Shown here in pieces: positions 20,084 through 61,772 of a DNA stretch of 64,000 nucleotides; position 1 is the stretch's first letter; each line of letters opens with the position of its first letter. A program made the position numbers and the translations under genes. The notes below the pieces were generated by a model. It was given only the letters and a program-made list of their open reading frames with translations, searched no databases and was not told where the DNA came from. The stretch is from Sulfurospirillum sp. SCADC. GTDB taxonomy: Bacteria; Campylobacterota; Campylobacteria; Campylobacterales; Sulfurospirillaceae. Where the stretch lies: NCBI RefSeq assembly GCF_000743525.1, contig NZ_JQGK01000014.1, positions 1-64,000 on the forward strand. Reading direction: 5' to 3'.

Positions 20084-21021
20084 TGTTTTTCTCCTAATTT
20101 AAATTCTAGTAACGTCGAAATCGTTTTGGTATACGGTGCATCTACACCGATTTGATGGAGGGCGCGAATCACAACACCGCAAATCTCTTCGATCTCAATG
20201 CTTCGTCCCTGCTCCAAATCCACCAACATCGAAGGTTTGATCGAATCAAAATGCTTGATCAGCTCAAACATCGCCTCAACATCGGCTTCGGTAATCTTTA
20301 CATGTAAAGCGCGCGCTGCCGCTGCCGTTTCGTGCATCAACCCTTGTACAATGGACGAGAGCTTCGTATGATCAAATAAAACACCTGTTTTCACCTCTAA
20401 AAGTGCACACAAAGCATTGACGCCATTATTAATAATCAGCTTTTTCCAAAGCTCTTGCTCAATGTCATACGTGGTTTGGGTCGGAATGCCTGCTTCATTA
20501 AACGTTGTAGCCAACGTTTCTAAAAAAGCTTCATTCTCAGAGGTTGTGCGCATCATCCCTAAAATCGTCTCAGCAGAACCCACCGCATTCACGCATCCGG
20601 GAGCTACAACGTGGGCTCCAATTTTACGGGTTAATCCGCCTATGACAAACTCTTCCGCGAAATAGTCGCATAAAATCGCCTCATTTTCAACACCATTTTG
20701 CAAAGAGACAATGTAGGGAGGTTTGATCTGTCGTTTGAGCCACTCAGCCAAAGAGGCTGAAGCTTCACGCGTTGCTGTAGATTTTGTTACGAGTAAAATG
20801 ACATCATAATGGTGTGGATCAAGATGCGAAAGGGCTTCCATATCTAACGCTTTTACAGGATGAGAGAAGTGAAGCGTTGGGTGAGAAAGGACAAGCCCAT
20901 TGGTCTGTAAAGCGTCTAAATGCGCACCTCGCGCGACCAACAAAACCTCATGCCCCGCTTCCAATAACTTGGCGGCGATGTAGCTCCCTACTCCGCCAGC
21001 ACCAAAGATGATAATGTTCAT
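20080..21021 (-). CDS. panE: 2-dehydropantoate 2-reductase (ketopantoate reductase family)
   Basis: 313 residues. An N-terminal NADP-binding Rossmann motif IIFGAGGVGSYIAAKLLEAG is followed by LLVTKSTATREA, the active-site region VSLQNGVENEA and WKKLIINNGVNALCALLEVKTG with the catalytic lysine. It reduces ketopantoate to pantoate in the coenzyme A pathway, though some family members act on other 2-oxo acids. Four-base overlaps link it to hisD upstream and mogA downstream. Confidence 0.9.
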   Translation of the reverse strand: MNIIIFGAGGVGSYIAAKLLEAGHEVLLVARGAHLDALQTNGLVLSHPTLHFSHPVKALDMEALSHLDPHHYDVILLVTKSTATREASASLAEWLKRQIKPPYIVSLQNGVENEAILCDYFAEEFVIGGLTRKIGAHVVAPGCVNAVGSAETILGMMRTTSENEAFLETLATTFNEAGIPTQTTYDIEQELWKKLIINNGVNALCALLEVKTGVLFDHTKLSSIVQGLMHETAAAARALHVKITEADVEAMFELIKHFDSIKPSMLVDLEQGRSIEIEEICGVVIRALHQIGVDAPYTKTISTLLEFKLGEKQ

Positions 21022-24335: not shown

Positions 24336-24360
24336 GAAAACGCCTTTTATTTCAATTTTT

Positions 24361-24431
24361 ATACGCCTTATGGGCAAAGCCCAAAAAGCTACGCTGCACT
24401 ATGCACTAAAGCTTGCCTCTTTGAGGCAGAA
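24361..24431 (+). repeat. structured intergenic repeat, copy A
   Basis: Element of about 70 bases beginning ATACGCC. Hairpin 1 is GGGC-AAA-GCCC (24372-24382). Then come GCTACGCT and GCACTAAAGCT, hairpin 3 GCCTC-TTT-GAGGC (24416-24428) and the trailer AGAA. It lies just upstream of the fba start on the minus strand. Related copies are at 26174, 41593 and 60065. Confidence 0.75.
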
Positions 24432-24536
24432 TTAAATCAGTATTAACATGCCTTAGATAATTGCCACTAGAGGACATGTAACATCACATATCGAAAGGCT
24501 ATTTGCCTCTATTTTTAAAAAACAAGATTTTTGTGA

Positions 24537-26151: not shown

Positions 26152-26170
26152 AGAGTTTCTGCAAAACTCT
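26152..26170 (+). terminator. hairpin terminator after nth
   Basis: Arms AGAGTTT / AAACTCT around a five-base loop, followed by TTTA, two bases after the nth stop. An equivalent AGAGTTCT hairpin precedes repeat copy D at 60041, so this terminator may be a standard leading part of that element. Confidence 0.65.
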
Positions 26171-26173
26171 TTA

Positions 26174-26232
26174 CACGCTTTTGAAGCAAAGCTTCAAAAA
26201 GCTACGCTAACGCTGAGTATACTTGAGCAGAA
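26174..26232 (+). repeat. structured intergenic repeat, copy B (diverged 3' part)
   Basis: Starts CACGC. Hairpin 1 is TGAAGC-AAA-GCTTCA (26182-26196), followed by AAAAGCTACGCTAACGCT and a weak third hairpin, then the shared trailer CAGAA. The CTAAAGCTAG spacer of the other copies is missing. It lies between convergent nth and the redoxin gene. A further GCACC-TTT-GGTGC hairpin follows at 26240-26252. Confidence 0.65.
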
Positions 26233-26253
26233 AGCCCACGCACCTTTGGTGCT

Positions 26254-41561: not shown

Positions 41562-41592
41562 TTTTTATCCTTTTACTTTAATTTTGATTTTA

Positions 41593-41668
41593 ATACGCCA
41601 ACAGAGCAAAGCTCTTTTTGGCTATGTTAGCCACTGGGGCGCTAAAGCTAGCCGACACGTCGGCAGAA
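41593..41668 (+). repeat. structured intergenic repeat, copy C
   Basis: Starts ATACGCC. Hairpin 1 AGAGC-AAA-GCTCT (41603-41615), hairpin 2 GGCT-ATGTT-AGCC (41620-41632), spacer GCTAAAGCTA, hairpin 3 GCCGAC-AC-GTCGGC (41651-41664), trailer AGAA. It sits in the 110-base gap between grpE and dnaK inside the heat-shock operon, where it would be transcribed on the minus strand and might modulate dnaK mRNA. Confidence 0.75.
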
Positions 41669-41671
41669 ATT

Positions 41672-58985: not shown

Positions 58986-60041
58986 ATGTTAGCTTACCTC
59001 CATATCCCTTTTTGCGACAGCAAATGCCATTATTGTGCTTTTAACTCTTACGAGAACAAGGGTACTCTTAAGCAAAACTACATGCAGCAGATTGTCAAGC
59101 AACTGCGCTATGAGTTGGAAAAATTTGATACTCCCAAGAAAAGTATTCGCTCTTTGTTTATTGGAGGTGGAACACCTTCTACCATTCCGTATGCGTGGTA
59201 TGAGCCTTTTTTTGAGATAATCACACCCTATTTGGAAGACAATGCTGAAGTTACCTCCGAAGCCAATCCTCAATCGGCAACCAAAGAGTGGCTAGAAGGG
59301 ATAAAAAACTTAGGCGTGAATCGTCTAAGCTTTGGAGTGCAGAGTTTTAATGCGCAAAAACTGGCATTTTTAGGGCGCAATCATACCCGGCAACATGCGT
59401 TGCACGCTATTGAAACGGCAGCCAAACTGGGCATTCAAAATATCTCTCTTGATCTCATTTATGGCACCACACTGGACACGCCAGCCCTGCTGCAAGAAGA
59501 CCTTGCCATCGCCACTGCTTTGCCCATCAATCATCTCAGTGCCTACGCGCTCACCCTTGAAGAAGAGACACCCTTTTTCAAACGAAACGATGTTGCCAAT
59601 GGCTCAGAGAAACTTGCCAAAGATTTTGTACAAGCGATTATACAAGCGGGATTTCCCCAATACGAAATCTCCAATTTTGGAACCTACCAAAGCGTGCATA
59701 ACAAAGGGTATTGGGAGCATCAAGACTATTTAGGAATCGGAGCAGGTGCGGTTGGTTTTTTAAAAAACAGGCGTTTTTATCCTGCCAAAGAGATCGAAGC
59801 GTATGTGCAAAATCCTCTTTTTCAAGAGATCGAAAAACTGAGCAGTGACGATTTACATGTCGAAAAAATTTTCCTCGGATTAAGAAGCATGATTGGCATC
59901 TCTTTAGCCTGTTTTAGCCCAAAAGAGATGGTACAAGTGAATATTTTAGTGGAAGAAAACAAGCTTACATGTAAAGATCATCGCGTCTTTAACACCGACT
60001 ACTTTTTAAGCGATGAGATAGCGCTGTTTATTACGCAATAA
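58986..60041 (+). CDS. hemW: radical SAM haem chaperone HemW (HemN-like)
   Basis: 351 residues from ATG 58986 (AAGGA upstream); a TTG at 58965 is in frame but lies before the SD. The radical-SAM motif is IPFCDSKCHYCAF with three cluster cysteines. Blocks RSLFIGGGTPSTIP, SEANPQSATKEWLEGIKNLGVNRLSFGVQSF and DLIYGTTLDT are seen. The fourth cysteine of HemN (CxxxCxxCxC) is replaced by phenylalanine here, so it is HemW, which inserts haem, rather than coproporphyrinogen oxidase. One iterated palindrome is read as LTCK near the C-terminus. Confidence 0.92.
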   Translation: MLAYLHIPFCDSKCHYCAFNSYENKGTLKQNYMQQIVKQLRYELEKFDTPKKSIRSLFIGGGTPSTIPYAWYEPFFEIITPYLEDNAEVTSEANPQSATKEWLEGIKNLGVNRLSFGVQSFNAQKLAFLGRNHTRQHALHAIETAAKLGIQNISLDLIYGTTLDTPALLQEDLAIATALPINHLSAYALTLEEETPFFKRNDVANGSEKLAKDFVQAIIQAGFPQYEISNFGTYQSVHNKGYWEHQDYLGIGAGAVGFLKNRRFYPAKEIEAYVQNPLFQEIEKLSSDDLHVEKIFLGLRSMIGISLACFSPKEMVQVNILVEENKLTCKDHRVFNTDYFLSDEIALFITQ

Positions 60042-60063
60042 GAGTTCTTACAGAACTCTTTTA
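60041..60063 (+). terminator. terminator after hemW
   Basis: Arms AGAGTTCT / AGAACTCT with a three-base loop, then TTTTA. The stem starts on the last base of the hemW stop codon. A similar AGAGTT hairpin precedes repeat copy B after nth. Confidence 0.8.
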
Positions 60064-60064
60064 T

Positions 60065-60139
60065 CACGCCTTTTAGGCAAAGCCCAAAAGGCTACGCTAA
60101 GCCGCTGTGGCACTAAAGCTAGCCTCATACGAGGCAGAA
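60065..60139 (+). repeat. structured intergenic repeat, copy D (most complete)
   Basis: Begins CACGCC. Hairpin 1 GGC-AAA-GCC (60076-60084), hairpin 2 GGCT-ACGCTA-AGCC (60090-60103), spacer CACTAAAGCTAG, hairpin 3 GCCTC-ATAC-GAGGC (60122-60135), trailer AGAA. It lies between convergent hemW and the Kef-type gene and is preceded by the hemW terminator hairpin. Confidence 0.75.
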
Positions 60140-60142
60140 GAG

Positions 60143-60162
60143 TTCTTGCAGTTTTGCAAGAA
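60143..60162 (-). terminator. hairpin after the Kef-type gene
   Basis: Arms TTCTTGCA / TGCAAGAA with a four-base loop, two bases past the stop on the minus strand. The minus strand continues into CTCTTCTGCC; the U-tract is weak. Confidence 0.6.
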
Positions 60163-60164
60163 GT

Positions 60165-61772
60165 CTAATAATCTTCTTCATCCATCGCCACTTTCAAAAG
60201 CGCTTTAGCGGCTTCTCGTCCTTCGTTGACAATATGTTTCACCTGAAGTGCTTTAAGGAGTTTTTTCTCATCGTAGTCACTCGCTTTGGCAACGATCTTA
60301 ATCGGAGCATCAAACGATTTAAGCACTTCACAGAGCAAAATGAGTTTTTTCTCATTATTAATCGCGATAATAACCGCTTTAGACTCTTCCACAAACGCAT
60401 TTTTCAAAATACTCTTCTCAGCCGCATTTCCAAAATAGACAGATTCGCCCCTGTTTTGCCCGAGTTTCACTAGATTGATGTCGTGCTCCAAAACCAAATA
60501 ATTGACATTCATCTTCTTGAGACGATAGACAATCTCTTGCCCTAATTTTCCGTATCCACACACAATGATGTGGTCTTTAATGCCTGAAGAGTGAATCATA
60601 AAATCGCCATTATTAGGCTCTTTCGTGATAGTATCCACAATTTTTTTCATATTTTTAAGAATAAAGGGCGTCATGATCATCGATAATACAACCGTCACAA
60701 TCAATATCTGAGAGGTCTTCGCACTGATAAGATGTGTTGAGCTTGCAAGTGCTAAAATCGCCAACGAAAACTCACCCGCTTGACACAACGCCAAACCTGT
60801 TTTCAAGGCAACGCGACCTCCGACTGCAAAAAATAAAATGCAAAAAACAACCAGTGTTTTAAACGAAACCATCGTCGCTAAAAAAAGTAAAATCGTGCCG
60901 TAATTTTGGGAAATCAAGCTAAGGTCAATCTGCATACCAACGGTGATAAAAAAGAGTCCAAGCAACAAGTCTCGAAACGGAACCAAGTCGGCTTCGATTT
61001 GATGTTTGTACTGCGTCTCGGACATCATCATACCTGCTAAAAATGCACCCAAAGAGTAGGAAAAGCCTAAAGTGTGTGCTAAAAATGAGGCGCCTACAAC
61101 GAGAAGCAACACCGAAGCGATGAAAATTTCTTGGGTATCTGCCCAGACAACCAGCGATAAAAAGCGATCAAGAAGGTATCTTCCGATGATAAACATAAGG
61201 CCTAAGATCAGAACAGCACTGTAAAACGTCTGCAAAAGAAGATCGGTGAGTGAACTATTTTGATTTGAAAAGATGTTAAGCATTAATAAGATCGGAATGA
61301 CTGCAATATCTTGAAAGAGTAAAATTCCAAGCGCTTTACGTCCGTAAATGGTATGAATCGTTCCGCTGTCATTGAGAATCTTAAGCACAATCGCCGTGGA
61401 TGAGAGTGCAAGTGCATACCCAATGATGATCGCACTCTTCTTCTCCATACCAAAAAAATACTCAGCGCTTAAAGCAATCACGCCTCCGACAAGAGAGACT
61501 TGGAGTAAGCCATAAAAGAAAACATCTTTTTTCATGCTAAGGAGATGTTTGATGGAAAACTCAAGCCCAATGGTAAACATCAAAAAAACAACACCAAACT
61601 CTGCGATATGCGTTAAAGATTCATTATTGCGACCCAGTTTGTACATGTAAGCAATGGCAAATCCTGTGATAATATAACCAATAATCGTTGGTATATTAAA
61701 ACGCTTCAACAAAAGGTTAAAGAGGGTTGCTAACGCCGTTGCACTTAAAATGATCGCTAAAATATTATCCAC
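60165..61772 (-). CDS. Kef-type monovalent cation:proton antiporter (CPA2) with RCK domain
   Basis: 535 residues. The CPA2 membrane part has about twelve segments with the family marks FNLLLKRFNIPTIIGYIITG, VVFLMFTIGLEFS and the ALALSSTAIVLKILND unwound helices. A cytosolic TrkA-N/RCK domain follows (HIIVCGYGKLGQEIVYRLKKMNVNYLVLEHD). It would exchange K+ or Na+ for protons, possibly gated by NAD(H) or thiol adducts as in KefB/C. There is no KefF/G partner nearby. It ends three bases before hspR begins, in the same direction, so the three genes downstream of the cbpA promoter may be one transcript. Confidence 0.9.
   Translation of the reverse strand: MDNILAIILSATALATLFNLLLKRFNIPTIIGYIITGFAIAYMYKLGRNNESLTHIAEFGVVFLMFTIGLEFSIKHLLSMKKDVFFYGLLQVSLVGGVIALSAEYFFGMEKKSAIIIGYALALSSTAIVLKILNDSGTIHTIYGRKALGILLFQDIAVIPILLMLNIFSNQNSSLTDLLLQTFYSAVLILGLMFIIGRYLLDRFLSLVVWADTQEIFIASVLLLVVGASFLAHTLGFSYSLGAFLAGMMMSETQYKHQIEADLVPFRDLLLGLFFITVGMQIDLSLISQNYGTILLFLATMVSFKTLVVFCILFFAVGGRVALKTGLALCQAGEFSLAILALASSTHLISAKTSQILIVTVVLSMIMTPFILKNMKKIVDTITKEPNNGDFMIHSSGIKDHIIVCGYGKLGQEIVYRLKKMNVNYLVLEHDINLVKLGQNRGESVYFGNAAEKSILKNAFVEESKAVIIAINNEKKLILLCEVLKSFDAPIKIVAKASDYDEKKLLKALQVKHIVNEGREAAKALLKVAMDEEDY

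Follow-up and report, generated by a model that had tools for sequence, protein, structure and literature searches.

The enterobacterial RU/ERIC and the neisserial Correia/NEMIS repeats are about 100–170 bp long, palindromic, intergenic, structured, and MITE-like. RU-1 to RU-3 elements have been described (PMC2759123), as have GTAG-tagged REPs with RAYT (REP-associated tyrosine transposase), and GTAG repeats have also been published for the epsilon division (PMC3733652). Here, a window of 64,000 nucleotides from Sulfurospirillum sp. SCADC (contig NZ_JQGK01000014.1, positions 1 to 64,000) was analysed, in which the original prediction had placed four copies of an intergenic hairpin repeat with a common plan, at 24361, 26174, 41593, and 60065. 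All four copies are present at these regions.

Architecture of the element

The unit predicted at 60065 (60065–60139) was too small. The element is a full-length class A copy of 126 bp that spans 60041–60166 on the plus strand; with one additional hairpin on either side, it folds into five hairpins in total (HP0-HP1-HP2-HP3-HP4, the outer two terminal; single-stranded DNA fold z = −6.6). HP0 (60041–60059, plus strand) is the left terminal palindrome AGAGTTCTTACAGAACTCT and forms the left IS-like end. HP1 (60068–60092, plus strand) has a GC-AAA-GC loop core and arms that vary with compensation, with GTAG directly 5′ on the minus strand. In the HP2 region (60096–60119, plus strand), GCT...AGC surrounds GCC-gctgt-GGC, and the fold gives the inner hairpin only. 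HP3 (60122–60135, plus strand; GCCTC-ATAC-GAGGC, then AGAA) is restricted to class A, and HP4 with the right IS-like terminal repeat TTCTTGCAGTTTTGCAAGAAGTCT occupies 60143–60166 (plus strand). The target-site triplets are ATA on the left (60038–60040) and AAT on the right (60167–60169). The two flanking genes (radical SAM and Na+/H+ exchanger type) are convergent, and their stop codons, at 60039–60041 and 60165–60167, lie partly within the element, whose inverted repeat can provide stops through its terminal TAG/CTA.

Two subclasses with a common hairpin 1 were distinguished in this genome, class A with 39 and class B with 49 copies. The 3′ half of class A consists of hairpin 3 (GCCTC/GAGGC) followed by AGAA, and that of class B of CTACGTTAACACTGGGTTTTCTTCGGCAGAAAGCCCACGCACCnTTGGTGC. 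Unlike the three class A copies of the window, the copy at 26174 belongs to class B and has a different 3′ half without hairpin 3. The other two class A copies are cores without either IS end: one (24356–24433, plus strand) has genes for a PpiC-type isomerase and a fructose-bisphosphate aldolase on either side, the other (41588–41670, plus strand) has grpE and dnaK on either side and orthologous copies with compensated arms, and both are antisense to both neighbours. The class B element (26152–26252, plus strand) comprises HP0 (26152–26170, plus strand), HP1, the B-type 3′ half, and a 3′ hairpin, GCACC-TTT-GGTGC (26240–26252, plus strand), and has no right IS end.

Many copies are flanked by extra palindromes (HP0 AGAGTTCTTnCAGAACTCT on the left, HP4 CTTCTTGCAAAAnnnnTTTTGCAAGAAGTCT on the right), and full-length copies end in AGAGTTCTTnCA...TGCAAGAAGTCT, i.e., in terminal inverted repeats. 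Since a class A copy in a genome from another family of the order (G364) also bears HP0 and HP4, both are assigned to the ancestral element. Hairpin 1 had been proposed as a GC-AAA-GC core with varying outer pairs, which is correct, but it had been drawn too short, as the AAAA/TTTT and GCC/GGC flanks pair too (GCCTTTTAGGC-AAA-GCCCAAAAGGC). Directly 3′ of HP1, most copies have CTACG on the plus strand, corresponding to GTAG at the foot of the hairpin on the minus strand. An extra insertion (about CAAAGTTTCCTTGA or CGAAGTTTCCTTGA) was seen within the 3′ arm of hairpin 1 at L207 and near 2165201 and 2557722 of G019, which we take to be S. halorespirans.

Distribution of the repeat family

The covariance model that had been suggested as a check was built from the four window copies and two further copies found by pattern. 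Its only matches in the window were the same four copies that had helped to build it (60059–60141, 93 bits; 41588–41670, 83 bits; 24356–24433, 79 bits; 26168–26234, 56 bits). The 2.66-Mb genome contained 88 copies (E ≤ 1e-3; best E 1e-20), and under stricter filters each other Sulfurospirillum genome contained 7–77 copies, with 24 of 24 genomes of the genus positive, including S. cavolei UCH003 (G021). In a sample of Campylobacterales, matches were obtained in 125 of 399 genomes, spread over 27 of 87 genera. The repeat is short, non-coding, and dispersed, with a full length of about 125–165 bp, a core of about 75 bp, and no notable open frame. As claimed, all window copies are intergenic (4/4), and so are about 95% of the genome copies according to mechanical ORF calling. 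Searches with the repeat gave no match in phage sequences and a single partial match in plasmids, in Sulfurovum. No paper on Sulfurospirillum repeats was found in the open-access literature; the family is large and apparently undescribed, in Sulfurospirillum as well as in other Campylobacterales, and the element is of a known, MITE-like kind that was not found described for these bacteria.

A different repeat, the palindrome TTACATGTAA (core of TTTACATGTAAA), occurs 32 times in the window at an expectation of 0.03 (e.g., at 20298, 27363, 27384, 43139, and 59965). Genome-wide, 1309 copies were counted in 2.66 Mb against 1 of the reversed control, and 820 in 1.6 Mb of G019. It is a HIP1-like highly iterated palindrome, located about once per 2 kb within and between genes, and is a stronger anomaly than the hairpin repeat itself. 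Among the open-access papers listed for the palindrome string, none dealt with it.

Insertion polymorphism

For 44 copies, both flanks (about 90% identical) could be placed at a syntenic site within 1.6 Mb of G019, and at 23 of these sites the element was missing or largely missing. The G019 site syntenic to 60065 has no element, and the corresponding site of G007 (presumably S. multivorans) is filled, with AAT duplicated on both sides. No other Sulfurospirillum genome in which the junction was readable has an element at the site of the copy at 26174. Between grpE and dnaK, the copies of many species form one lineage, and other species have lost the copy or keep remnants. As orthologous sites are often cleanly empty, the repeats are insertions.

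Such clean empty sites, the presence or absence of copies between close relatives, and the loss of the repeat at many sites argue against a functional structured RNA (a terminator, an attenuator, or an element for mRNA stability) that would be maintained because of its fold and would spread through conversion, with no transposase involved. The strong covariation, found also among the grpE-dnaK orthologues (see below), would fit such an RNA, as would the orientation of class A: where its copies lie between tandem genes, most run antisense to the two neighbours (19 vs 5). Class B copies, however, show no strand bias there (16 vs 14), and no Rfam 15 family matched the repeat at gathering score, with E-value matches at chance level only. 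We regard a functional RNA of this type as highly improbable.

A matching IS5-type insertion sequence

By self-comparison of G019, a 909-bp IS was detected in three copies, with the ends AGACTTCTTTCA.../...TGAAAGAAGTCT (also given as AGACTTCTTTCATAACCC) and 3-bp duplications. It has two overlapping ORFs with matches to HTH_Tnp_4, DDE_Tnp_4, and the IS5-family transposase model; taken singly, each scores below the curated cut-off of the last. A 62%-identical IS with the ends TAGACATCTTGCAAAACTCA...TGAGTTTTGCAAGATGTCTA is present in G007, G016, G023 (Sulfurospirillum diekertiae JPD-1), G010, and G014, with the same ANT triplet (AAT, ATT, or ACT) on both sides of nearly all copies. At the right end, the class B consensus AAATGAGTTTTGCAAGAAGTCTA and the IS found in S. 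diekertiae and S. multivorans share 22 of 23 bases at the exact terminal register, and a related IS in a genome of another family (G264) ends in exactly this sequence (23/23); the left end matches the IS more weakly (about 16/20). Alignment of the whole element to the IS scored above 200 of 200 shuffles. The core by itself gave no significant similarity, and its derivation from the IS was rejected on this basis.

In both-ended repeats, the same triplet lay on both sides, outside AGAG...TCT, in 11 of 28 candidates, a set that includes false or decayed ones; the corresponding figures were 15% for cross-pairs and 0–3 of 28 when the register was shifted. AAT/AAT and ATT/ATT border the two repeats of G019 whose end pairs are cleanest; at the 60065 site, the triplets are ATA/AAT in the window and AAT/AAT in G007. 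The 3-bp target duplication of the repeat is mostly ANT, and that of the IS is ANT. Two other assignments were rejected: TA at the ends would fit an IS630-type TA duplication, but the empty sites do not, and the 3-bp reading suits both IS and repeat; what is presumably an IS982-type IS in G019 has ends unrelated to the repeat. At 1124091–1124357 of G019 (L241), a different MITE-like element of 267 bp has the same IS5-type ends without the hairpin core.

In S. diekertiae JPD-1, the IS lies inside an OmpR-type response-regulator gene adjoining a membrane histidine kinase gene (L428, about 1449483–1452860), which indicates recent activity. This insertion is probably the disruption of RR2 by a two-gene, multicopy transposase in published work on JPD-1, where a 106-bp polymorphism upstream of cbiB was reported as well (PMC7755780). 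No IS of matching type was found in the genome of the window, and a clear one was present in only 6 of 24 Sulfurospirillum genomes, compared to 24 of 24 for the repeat. Its copies in the window's genome would therefore stem from past residence of the IS.

Given the IS-matching ends and the 3-bp target duplications common to both, the repeat is most likely a MITE of that IS, and from the family, its structure, insertion polymorphism, ends, short duplications, and the recent IS activity, we infer with good confidence that it is moved in trans by an IS5-type transposase. The transposase would come from an autonomous IS that is, or once was, resident, and it would recognise AGAGTTCTTnCA.../...TGCAAGAAGTCT, excise the element, and insert it at an A/T-rich triplet, whereby 3 bp would be duplicated. 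Between the IS ends, the element carries a conserved non-IS core, made up of hairpin 1 and either the class A or the class B version of the 3′ module, and many copies, chiefly of class A, have lost the IS ends or never had them. Counting against the MITE reading are the absence of the IS from the window's genome, the weaker left end, the end-less class A copies, and the non-IS core. The earlier suggestion of a MITE-like family is upheld by insertion polymorphism, ends, and target duplications; that of a mobile RNA element found no support; ends, target duplications, and the matching IS indicate DNA transposition.

Comparison with RAYT-mobilised repeats

The repeat had also been called REP-like. 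The REP hallmark GTAG (PMC3733652) does immediately precede hairpin 1 on the minus strand, and hairpin 1 might be a palindrome with a GTAG tag that a RAYT mobilises in single-stranded DNA form. A RAYT-like gene is located upstream of gyrA in nearly all Sulfurospirillum (protein vs REP_Tyr_transpos: 74.5 bits, just under the cut-off of 80), and outside the family, repeat and RAYT co-occur loosely, though above chance (odds ratio 3.4, p 1e-6, uncorrected for phylogeny). The matching RAYT that was to be looked for thus exists, but it is bordered by its own unrelated inverted repeat GGGGTCAGGGCTAAACTTTTAAC, an arrangement reported for "TIRtrons" (PMC3733652). At 30 RAYT-type loci, no hairpin repeat was present within about 1.5 kb. 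Moreover, of the 94 genomes outside the family that carry the repeat, 42 have no RAYT; the ends and the 3-bp duplications are consistent with IS5, and the sizes of the core (about 75 bp) and the full element (about 125–165 bp) are unlike those of REPs (20–40 bp). Mobilisation by RAYT is therefore considered unlikely. The RAYT-like gene with inverted GGGGTCAGGGCTAAACTTTTAAC flanks (L137, G000:C22:13485-14240) has orthologues at the same place upstream of gyrA in many Sulfurospirillum species.

Covariation of the hairpin arms and its possible causes

That the arms vary while pairing is kept was confirmed at several levels. In the six-copy alignment (21–22 pairs in four helices), 91.7% of the cells were paired, with 10 two-sided pair changes vs 4.3 after shuffling. 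In 88 distinct copies, whose alignment was fitted to the structure and hence leans towards pairing, 91.6% of the cells were paired vs 75.6% in shuffles, two-sided changes numbered 223 vs 56.7 (0 of 500 shuffles as high), and the covariation score was 0.351 vs 0.136; slid registers all gave much lower pairing than the true one. Six orthologous grpE-dnaK copies of different species, aligned freely, showed 94% pairing and five pairs changed on both sides, with hairpin 3 arms such as GCCGA/TCGGC, GCCAA/TTGGC, and ACTGA/TCAGT.

The covariation, including that at an orthologous site, supports the proposed selection on structure, but quasipalindrome correction could give the same pattern. The arms of a passive MITE would then be matched by template switching within the palindrome, with no selection involved. 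Class A hairpins, whose arms take nearly every sequence while pairing stays near-perfect and the loop does not change, look as expected of such arm-to-arm copying. Intermediate G-U and one-sided states do occur, however, and the unpaired core (CTACG, ACACG, AGAA) is conserved as well, which speaks against correction, though not decisively. Quasipalindrome correction is a possible, though not the favoured, account; it addresses why pairing persists and not what the element is. The strong structural conservation of the core may reflect a function of its own.

The IS ends are absent from 71 of the 85 class A copies collected, and in the flanks of these 71 copies target duplication was not above chance; a duplication of 8–10 bp, hinted at by the single sites L186, L189, and L006, was likewise not above chance in the 71 copies and was rejected. 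These copies are inferred relatives that have decayed or were mobilised differently. Rather doubtful is a scenario of one core with two vehicles, in which the hairpin core has its own function or mobility as a GTAG-tagged structured RNA or single-stranded DNA unit that spread through Campylobacterales, became enclosed by IS5 ends in part of the copies, and takes another route in end-less class A.

Significance and comparison with known systems

Read as a MITE of the IS5-type element, a large repeat family is explained and tied to a recently active IS, which in JPD-1 interrupts a probable response regulator of tetrachloroethene respiration. Hairpins, stop codons (TAG/CTA of the terminal inverted repeat), and possibly terminators can come to lie between genes with each insertion. 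The end-less class A copies and the covarying arms offer a tractable case of whether MITE hairpins are selected or merely corrected.

With IS5-family MITEs, the repeat has in common that it is short and gene-less, with terminal repeats matching an IS, a duplication equal to that of the IS, and many dispersed intergenic copies. It departs from them in its interior, where a conserved core of several hairpins shows no relation to the IS and has two alternative 3′ modules, and in that most class A copies are end-less. RU/ERIC and Correia/NEMIS are alike in size, palindromes, intergenic place, structure, and MITE-like nature but differ in sequence, taxon, end sequences, and the likely transposase family. 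GTAG-tagged REPs with RAYT (PMC3733652) share GTAG at the foot of hairpin 1 and alternative complementary stem residues, whereas here this hairpin is one of a larger element with IS5-like ends, and the RAYT has other flanks.
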